Below are positions 38,465 through 43,795 of a DNA stretch of 64,000 nucleotides, piece by piece. The first letter of the stretch is position 1, and each line of letters starts with the position of its first letter. The stretch is taken from contig NZ_BAAADV010000007.1 of NCBI RefSeq assembly GCF_039522665.1, positions 496,001 through 560,000 of the forward strand, read 5' to 3'. The DNA comes from Natronoarchaeum mannanilyticum (GTDB lineage: Archaea > Halobacteriota > Halobacteria > Halobacteriales > Natronoarchaeaceae). The notes under the pieces are model-generated. The model ran no database searches. It had not been told where the DNA came from and saw nothing but the letters and a program-made list of their open reading frames with translations. Position numbers and translations under genes: made by a program.

Positions 38465-40717
38465 ATGCGCGGCGACGACCGTCCGCTTCCGGACGGGCTC
38501 TATCGGACGATATTCGAGGAAGCCGACATCGGGATCGCAATCAACGATCCGGAGAACGGGACGTTCGGGGACGTCAACCCGAGGTACGCGGAGATGCTCG
38601 GCTACGACGCCGACGAGCTTCGCGACACGCGGATCGACGCGATCAGCGCCGAGGATCCCTCGTTCGATCAGGAAGCCGCCGAAGAGCGGCTACAGCGGGT
38701 GCTCGAGGGGGAGCCCCAGAAGTTCGACTGGCTCTTCGAACGCAAAGACGGGACGGAGATCTGGACGGAAGTGAGCCTCAAGCGGACGACCGTCGACGGC
38801 AACGTCCGCGTGCTCGCGTTCGTCAGGGACATCACCGAGAGCAAGGAACGAAAGTGGGATCTGGAGTTCTTCGAGGAACTGGTCGAAACCATCGGCGTCG
38901 GCGTCGGCGTTTACCGGGCTGACGGAACGATCGAGTACGTGAACGAGCGGTTCGCGGAGAACCTCGACGCCGACAGGGACGCCCTGCGAGGGGTGAAGAT
39001 CTGGGAGATCAACCCGGACGTCGATCCCGATCGATTCGACGAGTACTGGGCGTCGTTCGACGACGGCGAGACGCGCACGGCGGAAACCGTCCACTCGTTC
39101 GAGGGCAGCGAGGTTCCCGTCGAGACGGTGACGACCTGCAAAGAGATCAACGACACGCTCTATCACTTCGGGACGGTCCAGGATATCTCCGACAGGAAGG
39201 AACAGGAAGAGCGGTTCCAGGCGTTCGTCGAGCAATCCAACGACATCATCACCGTGCTCGGCGCGGACGGAACCTACCAGTACCAGAGCCCGTCGGCCCA
39301 GCGGATACTCGGCTACGAACGGGGCGAACTGATCGGCGAAAACGCCTTCGAGTACATTCACCCAGAGGACCGCGAGGAAGTACTCGGGAAGTTCGAGCAG
39401 GCGATCAACGAGCCGAGCATGCCGCCGGTCGTCGAGTACCGGTTCCGACACGCCGACGGTTCGTGGCGCTGGCTCGAGTCGCGAGGGTTCAACCAGCTCG
39501 ACAACTCCGCGGTCGAGGGGTTCGTGGTCAACAGTCGCGACGTGACCGAACGAAAGCGCCACGAACGCCAGATCGCCGACATGCACGACGCGACCCGGAC
39601 GATGTTCCAGGCGACAGATGCGGAGCGCATCTGCGAGATCGCGGTCGAGACCGCCGAGACCATCCTCGATCATCCGATCGCCGGGGTCTGGTTGTGCGAC
39701 GAGAGCGGCGAACGGCTCGAACCGATCACGTCGACCGATGCCGCTCACGAGCTGATAGAGGAGTTCCCGGTCTACACCGAGGGGAACAGCCTCTCGTGGC
39801 GCGCGTACGAAACTGGCGAGCCGTTCGTCACCGGCGACCTGCGCGAGGAGTCCGGCGCGTACGACCCCGAGACGGAGCTGCGGAGCGAGTTGATCGTCCC
39901 GCTTGGCGACTACGGCGTGTTGAACATGGGCGCGGCGGCCGTCGACGCGTTCACCGACAACGACATCGCACTCGCAAAGCTACTGGGGGCGAACACGCGA
40001 GCTGCGCTGGGGCGCAACGATCGCGAACGGCTCCTGGAACGCCAGACCGACCAGATGGAGTTTTTCAACTCGATCCTCAGACACGACGTTCTCAACGCGG
40101 TCACCGTGATCAAATCCCGCGCCGAGTTCCTCGAAGCGGAGCTCGAGGGCGAGCAGTTGCGGGACGTGAAGACGATCATCAGCTGGAGCGACGATGTTCA
40201 GGAGATCGTCCAGCGTGTCCGAACCGTGCTGGAGACGTTGACCGGCGAGGGCGACCCGCAGCTCGAACCGATGCAGCTCGGACCTGAACTCCGCGCCGAG
40301 ATCGAGCGCGTTCGAGCGACGTATCCCGACGCCTCGTTCGACGTCGACGTGCCCGATGGCGCGCCGGTGCTGGCCAACGACCTGCTGGGAGACGTGCTGG
40401 GCAATATCGTGACGAACGCCGTCGATCACAACGACACCGCCGGCCTTCGCGTCTCGGTGACCGCAGAGCGCCGGAACGACGCCGTGATCGTCCGCATCGC
40501 CGACAACGGGCGAGGCGTCGACGACGATCGCAAAGAGGCCATCTTCCGTAGGGGTGAAACGGGCCACGCGAAGTCTGTGGGATCGGGCTTCGGACTGTTC
40601 TTCGTCGACGCCATGGTCGACGAGTACGGCGGCGAGGTCAGCGTCGAGGACAACGACGACGGCGGCGCGACCTTCGTGATCCGCCTTCCGGTTTCGGAAT
40701 CGGCCGATTCGACGTGA
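38465..40717 (+). CDS. PAS/GAF sensor histidine kinase
   Basis: The 750-residue cytosolic kinase has PAS domains at about 10-125, 130-245 and 250-370 (each ending in RDIT/QDIS/RDVT), a GAF-like domain at about 375-525, then the dimerisation/phospho-acceptor helix with His540 in FNSILRHDVLNAV. The ATPase domain carries NIVTNAVDHND, ADNGRGVDDD and GSGFGLFFVD. No transmembrane segment is seen, so it senses an internal signal. It starts at the ATG at 38465. The response regulator gene begins 53 bases downstream on the same strand and may be its partner. Confidence 0.93.
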   Translation: MRGDDRPLPDGLYRTIFEEADIGIAINDPENGTFGDVNPRYAEMLGYDADELRDTRIDAISAEDPSFDQEAAEERLQRVLEGEPQKFDWLFERKDGTEIWTEVSLKRTTVDGNVRVLAFVRDITESKERKWDLEFFEELVETIGVGVGVYRADGTIEYVNERFAENLDADRDALRGVKIWEINPDVDPDRFDEYWASFDDGETRTAETVHSFEGSEVPVETVTTCKEINDTLYHFGTVQDISDRKEQEERFQAFVEQSNDIITVLGADGTYQYQSPSAQRILGYERGELIGENAFEYIHPEDREEVLGKFEQAINEPSMPPVVEYRFRHADGSWRWLESRGFNQLDNSAVEGFVVNSRDVTERKRHERQIADMHDATRTMFQATDAERICEIAVETAETILDHPIAGVWLCDESGERLEPITSTDAAHELIEEFPVYTEGNSLSWRAYETGEPFVTGDLREESGAYDPETELRSELIVPLGDYGVLNMGAAAVDAFTDNDIALAKLLGANTRAALGRNDRERLLERQTDQMEFFNSILRHDVLNAVTVIKSRAEFLEAELEGEQLRDVKTIISWSDDVQEIVQRVRTVLETLTGEGDPQLEPMQLGPELRAEIERVRATYPDASFDVDVPDGAPVLANDLLGDVLGNIVTNAVDHNDTAGLRVSVTAERRNDAVIVRIADNGRGVDDDRKEAIFRRGETGHAKSVGSGFGLFFVDAMVDEYGGEVSVEDNDDGGATFVIRLPVSESADST

Positions 40718-40770
40718 GCGTTCCTACGCGGGGACCACATTTATGCGAGGGAGTGACAAACCGTCCCGGT

Positions 40771-41376
40771 ATGGATGACACCGACCGGCCCGTCGTCCTC
40801 GTCGTCGAGGACGAACCGGACGTCGCGGAGACCTACGAGCGGTGGCTTCGCTCCGAGTACGACGTCCGTGTAGCGGACGACGGCCCGACCGCGCTCGAGG
40901 AGCTCGACGGGACGGTCGACGTGGTGCTGCTCGACCGAATGATGCCCGGGATGTCCGGCGAGGAGGTCCTCCGAGAGATCCGCGATCGGGGCGTCGACTG
41001 CCGGGTCGCGATGGTCACGGCGGTCGATCCCGACTTCGACGTCATCGAGATGGGATTCGACGAGTACGTCACGAAGCCGCCCGAACGCGACGAACTGCTC
41101 GAGACCGTCGAGCGGCTGGTCGACCGCGCGTCGCTCGACGACGAGATGCAGGAGTACTACGCGCTGGTCGCCCGCCGGAGCGCGCTCGAAGACGAGAAGA
41201 CGAGCGAAGAACTGGCCGACAGCGAGGAGTACGCCGAACTCGTCGATCGGATCGAAGCCGAGCGCGCGACGGTCGACGAAGATCTCGGAGATATGTCGTC
41301 CGACAGGGGGTTCGTCGGCGCCGTGCGCGAGATCGTGGACGAGGACGAGTCGACGAAAGGGGGCGATCGAACGTGA
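40771..41376 (+). CDS. HalX-type response regulator
   Basis: The 201-residue protein has a receiver domain with acidic pocket Glu13/Asp14, phosphorylation site Asp55 (LLDRMMPG) and Lys102 (YVTKPPE). The C-terminal about 70 residues form an acidic helical HalX-type output segment (EMQEYYALVARRSALEDEKTSEELADSEEYAELVDRI). HalX output is non-DNA-binding as far as known. The ATG at 40771 is preferred; an upstream ATG at 40714 overlaps the kinase gene end. It is translationally coupled to the ATPase gene, whose GTG overlaps its stop by 4 bases. Confidence 0.92.
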   Translation: MDDTDRPVVLVVEDEPDVAETYERWLRSEYDVRVADDGPTALEELDGTVDVVLLDRMMPGMSGEEVLREIRDRGVDCRVAMVTAVDPDFDVIEMGFDEYVTKPPERDELLETVERLVDRASLDDEMQEYYALVARRSALEDEKTSEELADSEEYAELVDRIEAERATVDEDLGDMSSDRGFVGAVREIVDEDESTKGGDRT

Positions 41377-42035
41377 GTTCAGCGTACGACATCTCCGGCG
41401 TCCTTCCGAATGGGATGATAAAGGAACTCCCCGCCGGGACGAGTGTCCTGATCAACGGGCCGACGATGATCGGGAAGCGGGAACTCGCCTTGCGGTTGCT
41501 CGCGACCGGTCACGAGACCGGCGACGGGATCCTCTGCGTGACGACCAGCGACGACGCCGCGAGCCTGCTCGACGAGTTTGAACGCCAGATCCCGTCACTG
41601 GAGCGCGATCGTGTCGGCGTCGTCGACTGCTCGGGGGGCGACCACCGGCGAACGATCCAGGAGATCGCGACCGAACGGGTCGCCTCGCCGGGCGACCTGA
41701 CGGGGATCAGCATCGGAACCGCGAAGCTCCTCCAGCGATTCTCCAAGCAGGACATCGAGGACGTCCGCCACGGGCTGGTGTCGGTGTCGACGCTGATCCA
41801 GTATCTCGACCTCAACACGGTGTTCAAGTTCCTCCACATCTACACCTCGCGGATCGACGACACCGACGGGCTCGGCGTGTTCACGGTCGACGCCGGAACG
41901 CACGATCGCCAGACGATCGACACGATCACCGGCGAGTTCGACTGCGTGATCGAGCTGCGGGAGGACGACGCGGGCGATCGAGAGATCCGGATCAAGGGGC
42001 TGTCGGGCGTGGACCGCAGCTGGCACCCCTACTGA
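41373..42035 (+). CDS. RadA/KaiC-like ATPase with altered Walker A
   Basis: A 220-residue RecA-fold-like protein. ELPAGTSVLINGPTMIGKREL has the Walker A position (residues 29-37), but Lys35 is followed by Arg rather than Thr or Ser. A Walker B-like strand LGVFTVDAG follows later. Such RAD55/KaiC-related proteins are common in haloarchaea beside signal-transduction genes (DUF7504-type). It starts with GTG overlapping the response regulator stop (GTGA), so it is coupled to the kinase-regulator pair. Binding of ATP without hydrolysis is possible, but this is inference. Confidence 0.82.
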   Translation: MSSAYDISGVLPNGMIKELPAGTSVLINGPTMIGKRELALRLLATGHETGDGILCVTTSDDAASLLDEFERQIPSLERDRVGVVDCSGGDHRRTIQEIATERVASPGDLTGISIGTAKLLQRFSKQDIEDVRHGLVSVSTLIQYLDLNTVFKFLHIYTSRIDDTDGLGVFTVDAGTHDRQTIDTITGEFDCVIELREDDAGDREIRIKGLSGVDRSWHPY

Positions 42036-43097: not shown

Positions 43098-43177
43098 ACT
43101 CGGACGTGTGCTATCCGGCGGCGTAAACGGTGGGGTTGCGGCGGGATCGGCTGGCAGCCGGGCGGTGGGTCGCCGGC

Positions 43178-43249
43178 GGTGGCGTCAGCATCAGTGGCGG
43201 CGTCAGCATCAGTGGCGGCGTCAGCATCGGCGGCGGCGCCAGCATCGGC
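43178..43249 (+). repeat. Four tandem 18-base units upstream of the stress-protein gene
   Basis: The unit GGCGGCGTCAGCATCAGT is repeated head to tail: 43178-43195, 43196-43213, 43214-43231 and 43232-43249, with the first copy differing by GGT and the last two by AGT-to-GGC and GTC-to-GCC changes. If read in frame it would encode GGVSIS repeats. It lies between the divergent aldo/keto reductase gene and the universal stress protein gene, about 88 bases before the latter. Confidence 0.85.
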
Positions 43250-43336
43250 GGCGACGGTGTCGACCGGCGCGACGGCGTCGTCACGACGAAGTTCTCGACA
43301 CCGGGGACATTTGTGTCTCGTCGTGGACGGACACCT

Positions 43337-43795
43337 GTGCCGTCCCGAGTGCTGGTGGCGTACGACGAATCGACCCAGGCGAACTTCGCGCTGCGGTACG
43401 CGCTGTCGACCCACCCCGACGCCGAGATCCGCGTCCTGCACGTCACCGACCCGCGGGAGTGGTACGACGCGGGCGACGTCGACGGCTACGCGTACGAGGA
43501 GTCCTACAGGCGTTCCCAGGAGTCCGCCGAGCGACTGCTCGAACGAGCCGAGGGGATCGCCCGGGAGAACGGCAGGGAGATAACGACCGATATTGCGGAG
43601 GGCAGAGCGGCCCAGACAATCGTGCGCTACGCCGAGGAGCACGGCTTCGACCACGTCGTGCTCGGAAGCCACGGTCGCAGCGGCCTGTCGCGGTTGCTGC
43701 TCGGGAGCGTCGCCGAGATCGTCGTCCGGCGGTCGCACGCGCCGGTGACGGTCGTCAGGAACGATCAAACCGGTGCGGAGACGGTCGAACGGTAG
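43337..43795 (+). CDS. Universal stress protein (UspA-like)
   Basis: A 152-residue UspA-domain protein. The N-terminal strand VLVAYDESTQANFALRYAL (ATP pocket Asp) and the C-terminal GSHGRSGLSRLLLGSVAE match the ATP-binding motif G-2X-G-9X-G(S/T). A NAD(P)/ATP-binding small alpha/beta fold is expected, with a stress-response role. The start is GTG 43337 at VPSRVLV. A longer reading from GTG 43130 would include the tandem repeat as a GGVSIS-rich extension, which I consider less likely because family members begin at this strand. Confidence 0.9.
   Translation: MPSRVLVAYDESTQANFALRYALSTHPDAEIRVLHVTDPREWYDAGDVDGYAYEESYRRSQESAERLLERAEGIARENGREITTDIAEGRAAQTIVRYAEEHGFDHVVLGSHGRSGLSRLLLGSVAEIVVRRSHAPVTVVRNDQTGAETVER

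Follow-up and report, generated by a model that had tools for sequence, protein, structure and literature searches.

A putative non-hydrolysing KaiC-fold protein of the DUF7504 family encoded behind a REC-HalX response regulator in a conserved cassette of Natronoarchaeum mannanilyticum

The third gene of a cassette running from a histidine kinase through a REC-HalX response regulator to a DUF7504 protein encodes, as judged from its sequence, what is most likely a non-hydrolysing pseudo-ATPase resembling the published iKaiC signalling domains, and the link between DUF7504 and HalX is conserved in two clades of the family. Combining the sequence with a predicted fold, we consider it fairly probable that this protein is a KaiC-fold partner which does not hydrolyse ATP and which is acted on by the REC-HalX regulator of its own cassette. 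Its most likely role would be that of the partner on which the phosphorylated regulator acts, contact being made, presumably, with HalX.

The stretch of DNA analysed here, hereafter the window, comprises 64,000 nucleotides of contig NZ_BAAADV010000007.1, and the features relevant to the cassette are as follows:

38465..40717, plus strand: sensor histidine kinase (Pfam matches to three PAS stretches, GAF, HisKA-like and HATPase_c)
40740..40745, plus strand: TTTATG, possible TATA element, read by eye, 26-31 bases 5' of the regulator ATG
40771..41376, plus strand: REC-HalX response regulator, 201 aa (Pfam PF00072 and PF08663)
41122..41316, plus strand: HalX output domain, residues 118-182 of the regulator (PF08663, 65.5 bits)
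41373..41376, plus strand: GTGA, 4-base overlap of the DUF7504 start with the regulator stop (sequence)
41373..42035, plus strand: DUF7504 protein, 220 aa, with a predicted inactivated KaiC-like fold (PF24336, 102.5 bits, and predicted fold)
41457..41480, plus strand: degenerate Walker A GPTMIGKR, residues 29-36 (translation and family comparison)
41685..41717, plus strand: family signature SPGDLTGISIG, residues 105-115, aligned to the DLSGL stretch before the KaiC Walker B strand
41763..41783, plus strand: Walker B strand, residues 131-137, with Val136 replacing Asp (strand in the predicted model; alignment column)

The HisKA match of the kinase lies below the cut-off (21.5 versus 26.9 bits, Pfam), and an LRHDVLN phospho-acceptor box can be read in it by eye. 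The TATA candidate would fit a leaderless transcript of the regulator and DUF7504 genes. A 4-base overlap of the DUF7504 gene with the stop of a response-regulator gene, as put forward in the original prediction, was borne out (GTG start at 41373, regulator TGA at 41374-41376), and the regulator in question is an intact REC-HalX protein. The GTG start is supported by the first residues of the DUF7504 protein, YDIxxVLP, which are conserved among orthologues. Downstream, an aldo/keto reductase gene lies on the opposite strand, and the cassette therefore seems to end at the DUF7504 gene. Further along the window, an 18-base repeat (43174-43253, 4.4 copies) occupies the N-terminal part of the frame 43130-43795, where it codes for GGVSIS-like repeats ahead of a Usp domain; the real start of this frame may follow the repeat.

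The regulator combines, in its sequence, a phospho-acceptor pocket with HalX. Its REC match scores 77.2 bits, and an alignment with four orthologues reveals a complete REC pocket (E13, D14, D55, T83 and K102, position 83 being Ser in two of them), residues which we take to have the roles of their counterparts in CheY. The predicted model of the regulator (pTM 0.56) is too weak for the structure of HalX to be read from it.

The protein encoded at 41373..42035 matches nearly the whole DUF7504 profile over residues 22-195 (102.5 bits versus a Pfam cut-off of 27), and the related DUF7090 also scores on it (40 bits, Pfam). The match to KaiC (PF06745) stays under the Pfam cut-off (17.3 versus 26.6 bits), as do those to ArlH (NF052589, 12.4 versus 215 bits) and FlaH (PRK06067, 19.5 versus 194 bits) under the NCBIfam cut-offs. 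Nine DUF7504 matches, the window protein included, are found in its own genome, and 348 of the 392 sampled genomes of the window's order match the window protein at E 1e-20 or better. Across the phylum, the DUF7504 profile is matched at E 0.001 by 155 of 246 genomes, with 144 above the cut-off; counted from the listing, 43 of the 155 belong to the window's order and 112 lie outside it. A search of 50,697 phage records for a relative of the protein gave no match at E 1e-5. The PADLOC matches, all of them weak, were taken as chance for both proteins, that of the DUF7504 protein being mad8 (19.7 bits) and those of the regulator scoring 20.6 (SduA) and 17.9 bits (PDC-M60B), and a link to defence systems was thus set aside.

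The AlphaFold2 model of the DUF7504 protein, built on six sequences in five versions with a mean pLDDT of 57 to 80, has the RecA/KaiC fold (mean pLDDT 79.6, pTM 0.79). When aligned by VIA-align to the chains ranked highest by Foldseek, the model matched PH0284 (2dr3) with a Z of 19.5 (2.9 A over 202 residues), SSO2452 with 18.4, KaiC (8dba) with 18.3 and FlaH (4yds) with 16.7, and the 50 entries listed gave Z values of 16.3-19.5 over 178-204 residues. Searched alone against the sequences of solved structures, the protein returned nothing under E 0.03, and a profile built from 21 relatives recovered KaiC and SSO2452.

For comparison within the family, 152 loci found by similarity to the window protein or to the family profile, a sample and not a census, yielded 152 domain rows, of which 125 were distinct and 123 readable over the loop, the window gene being one of these. 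The SPxDLTGI signature, which aligns with the DLSGL stretch ahead of Walker B in KaiC 8zn5, is strongly conserved in these rows (P in 121/123, D in 119/123, the Gly after Thr in 118/123). GK is kept in 98 of the 123 rows of the window's order, the window gene included, with the full GxxxxGK spacing in 97 of the 98; a further nine rows have lost the Lys and kept an Arg (GAR or GSR), and the GK loop is wholly absent from 16, among which L039, devoid of a P-loop, is counted.

The translation confirms that Lys35 (AAG, 41475-41477) is followed by Arg36 (CGG, 41478-41480) in the Walker A motif, as originally predicted. The accompanying claim that the rest of the fold is kept stands for the fold, by the predicted model, and fails for the catalytic residues, since Walker B Asp and the catalytic Glu have been lost as well: the Walker B Asp column holds V136, the first KaiC catalytic Glu column S60 and the next column D61, so that the protein has neither the Walker A Thr/Ser nor the Walker B Asp nor the catalytic Glu pair of KaiC ATPases. 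As a stand-alone KaiC/RecA-fold domain which has lost all three catalytic positions, it should therefore not hydrolyse ATP. These losses extend to its relatives. Throughout the window's clade (19 rows, support 100/99), the Walker B Asp column is V, I, L or H, and the Asp is present in only 18 of the 98 GK rows (30 of the 123 rows overall); Glu occupies the first KaiC Glu column in none of the 98 GK rows, four of which have a gap there. A single locus, L026, combines a Ser behind the Lys with a retained Walker B Asp.

It is conceivable that the protein is still an ATPase in which the Mg2+ ligand and the base come from another residue, as the predicted fold and the retained P-loop Lys would allow and as might be read from the second KaiC Glu column, acidic in 10 of the 19 rows of the clade (D in six, E in four; D61 in the window protein). 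We regard this as highly improbable, given that none of Thr/Ser, Walker B Asp and first Glu has been kept and that, when KaiC-family domains from the same genome were put through the same profile alignment as controls, four of them (L153, both domains of L154, and L156) displayed GKT or GKS together with Glu in the first column; in L153 the alignment also recovers LEE and the Walker B Asp. The proteins L157 and L158, which match PF06745, are themselves without GK. The pseudo-ATPase reading is thus well supported by sequence, in line with the original proposal of a non-hydrolysing protein.

The residue following the P-loop Lys varies widely. In the 98 GK rows it is R in 61, E in 19, Q in 11, Y in four, D in two, S in one and T in none, so that Walker A Thr/Ser is absent from 97 of the 98. 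By clade, it is R in 15 rows and Q in four of the window's own; in a second clade linked to HalX (29 rows, support 98/94) it is E in 18, Q in seven, D in two and R in two; and in clade C, a widespread paralogue, it is R in all 32 rows. Forty further loci were compared, 19 from outside the order and 21 from within it, and GKT or GKS was found in none of the 40. Outside the order, nine of the 19 keep GK (GKD in six, GKN in two, GKE in one) and the other ten have RKD, KKD or ADR-like forms; within it, three of the 21 keep GK, all as GKR. On these alignments, the sampled DUF7504 sequences have generally lost the hydroxyl that binds Mg2+, a loss probably older than the order, and Arg36 appears as one of several replacements at the Walker A Thr/Ser position. 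It is no chance slip, because non-Thr/Ser residues occupy the position across the family. The question whether Arg is general in the subgroup thus receives a divided answer, Arg prevailing in the window's clade alongside a minority of Gln and giving way mostly to E or Q in the second clade; with R, Q, E, D, N, Y and one S at this place, Arg as a special trait of the window gene was ruled out.

This variation bears on the possibility that Arg36 replaces the charge of Mg2+ and that the protein toggles by nucleotide binding and release, a Mg-independent switch for which one could invoke the Arg of clade C (32/32), of the window's clade (15/19) and of the GAR/GSR rows (9/9), as well as the loss of the Walker B Asp along with Thr/Ser in the window's clade. 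However, 27 of the 29 rows in the other HalX-linked clade carry E, Q or D here, and the nine GK-keeping loci outside the order carry D, N or E; the cassette therefore does not require a positive charge. Moreover, in a mixed group D, the Walker B Asp is kept in 14 of 21 rows and Thr/Ser is absent from 20 of 21, and the two losses are therefore not tied to each other. Such a switch appears decidedly unlikely to us.

The Lys itself bears on another alternative, namely that the protein, with a P-loop that is a mere remnant and binds no nucleotide, offers the regulator nothing more than its fold as an adaptor. Such a pure scaffold would account for the persistence of the rows without the Lys (GAR or GSR, nine) or without a GK loop (16), and for a HalX-linked protein of genome G029 (L162:2855-3511) whose P-loop reads GPPHTGADEL, without Lys. 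Conversely, the Lys is invariant in the window's clade (19/19) and GxxxxGK spacing is nearly so among the GK rows, which suggests that a ligand has been kept. We hold a pure scaffold to be possible, if on the unlikely side; judged by sequence conservation, the retention of Lys and Gly in the window's clade favours a bound phosphate ligand in the proposed partner of the regulator, although other clades do without them.

The order of the genes provides the evidence for coupling. In all 19 rows of the window's clade, the window gene included, a REC-HalX gene precedes the DUF7504 gene on its own strand (about 1.1 kb away in L060), which supports the coupling to a HalX regulator proposed originally; a kinase is present in 18 of the 19 (absent in L013/L084), and an ATGA or GTGA start/stop overlap is possible in 12, the window gene again included. 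REC-HalX also lies upstream in 29 of the 29 rows of the second clade, where no kinase was found in the flanks of the 19 rows examined, and an outlier, L148, carries all three genes. The other 74 of the 123 tree rows showed no HalX in the upstream flank examined, some of these flanks being of 1.5 kb only and the single-sequence search with the window's HalX being one that could miss a remote HalX. A single change of the HalX label suffices on the tree; support for the joining branch is low (29/73), and the link may therefore have had one or two origins. The distances of regulators and DUF7504 proteins correlate (r 0.81 over 18 pairs, 0.95 over 30 pairs; as high in 0 of 1000 permutations), a result that is also expected of linked genes without contact. 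No fusion of HalX and DUF7504 in one frame was flagged among the pairs compared. Outside the window's order, HalX was found in one of eight genomes.

Seen from the side of HalX, the association is looser. In ten genomes, nine chosen for holding the window's clade and one for the second clade, a DUF7504 match follows immediately on 13 of the 57 HalX matches, counted by eye, only three of these 13 pairs lying beyond what the choice of genomes brought in; two further HalX-DUF7504 pairs occur in G029. The remaining 44 HalX matches have none, so that HalX is not generally dependent on such a neighbour, which speaks against the partnership. The two proteins might then be neighbours only, sharing a transcript and acting separately. 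The listing in PMC5605881 counts HalX among the DNA-binding or transcription-factor domains of halophiles, from which it would follow that the regulator acts on DNA, for instance, and not on its neighbour; moreover, the DUF7504 gene that accompanies kinase and regulator on a Natronosalvus plasmid encodes no more than 76 aa. We find mere neighbourhood doubtful in view of the upstream REC-HalX common to all 48 rows of the two clades, the possible overlap of reading frames in most rows of the window's clade and the additional pairs in G029.

Taken together, a mechanism can be proposed in which the DUF7504 protein is the partner acted on by the regulator. The genes follow the order histidine kinase, REC-HalX and DUF7504; the kinase would phosphorylate Asp55 of the regulator, upon which the HalX part would alter its contact with the DUF7504 protein, and the latter may relay this state, through direct contact between proteins, to a downstream target. 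A nucleotide or some other phosphate ligand may sit in the retained GxxxxGK loop in a structural or allosteric capacity. A bolder and rather unlikely extension is that HalX serves to dock inactivated KaiC-fold proteins, the phosphorylation of REC controlling its hold on a DUF7504 partner in whose degenerate P-loop a nucleotide would sit without Mg2+ and which would relay the signal without hydrolysis; if true, the haloarchaeal HalX would thereby acquire its first function, and a bacterial-type two-component system would be connected with the archaeal KaiC network.

The window's clade is sparse yet wide, with a match of at least 200 bits in 18 of 392 genomes of the order under eight family labels (own genome included), and four plasmid records carry copies with 60-61 percent identity. 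On a Halobaculum plasmid, the DUF7504 gene is preceded by an annotated GAF-domain protein and a response regulator, and on a Haladaptatus plasmid, the annotation splits both kinase and regulator in two. In Haloarcula japonica, the regulator (L013:2397-2965) appears out of frame between REC and HalX, with no 180-aa frame there, which would reflect a sequencing error or decay. From this pattern, the cassette would seem to behave as accessory modules do, both spreading and decaying. DUF7504 is further found fused to a MarR-like winged helix (DUF7343; L163:2480-3799) and to DUF7344 (L006:1060-2106) and as a match within a plasmid gene annotated as a HalOD1 protein, and therefore serves as a module in regulators. 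In clade C, the DUF7504 gene is directly followed by CoA_binding_2 (PF13380) in 23 of 32 rows by phmmer (e.g. L002:1459-2547), as confirmed by Pfam in the four checked; the misses L143 and L125 have one farther off.

Among known systems, a close parallel is iKaiC, the name given to inactivated KaiC-like domains in archaeal signal transduction (Galperin et al. 2018, PMC5847659). Like these, the window protein combines a KaiC fold, by model, with the loss of catalytic residues, by sequence. The passages of PMC5847659 that deal with iKaiC take the KaiC-like domain as inactivated, place it with REC, HalOD1 and DUF835 proteins and describe fusions, whereas the DUF7504 protein here is encoded by a separate gene behind REC-HalX. 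With ArlH/FlaH and KaiC the protein shares the fold, by model, and unlike them it has no Walker A Thr/Ser, Walker B Asp or first catalytic Glu and scores far below the ArlH and KaiC cut-offs. Within PF24336, a family of unknown function to which a literature search returned no paper referring by name, with the cassette perhaps already standing in Makarova et al. 2017, which PMC5847659 cites on iKaiC, it shares the GPxxxGKx loop and the SPxDLTGI signature with its relatives, most of which, as indicated above, are without HalX in the flank examined. Its upstream regulator is an ordinary member of the REC-HalX response regulators with a complete REC pocket. HalX appears in the table of PMC5847659 with more than 550 proteins, and where that paper treats the domain it is given as having no documented function and as possibly helix-turn-helix; HVO_1357, a regulator hit in hypermotile mutants of Haloferax (PMC7824242), also bears HalX and is a larger, Bat-type protein. 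Overall, these comparisons support the original prediction in part, on sequence as regards a non-hydrolysing protein and by conserved gene order as regards its coupling to a HalX regulator, the nucleotide switch and the receipt of the regulator's signal being proposals. The Arg itself is not special. DUF7504 proteins should not be annotated as ATPases on fold alone, because the hydroxyl loss, general in the sampled sequences, reaches beyond the order, and HalX, for which PMC5847659 gives no documented function, gains a conserved neighbour and with it a concrete candidate binding partner.
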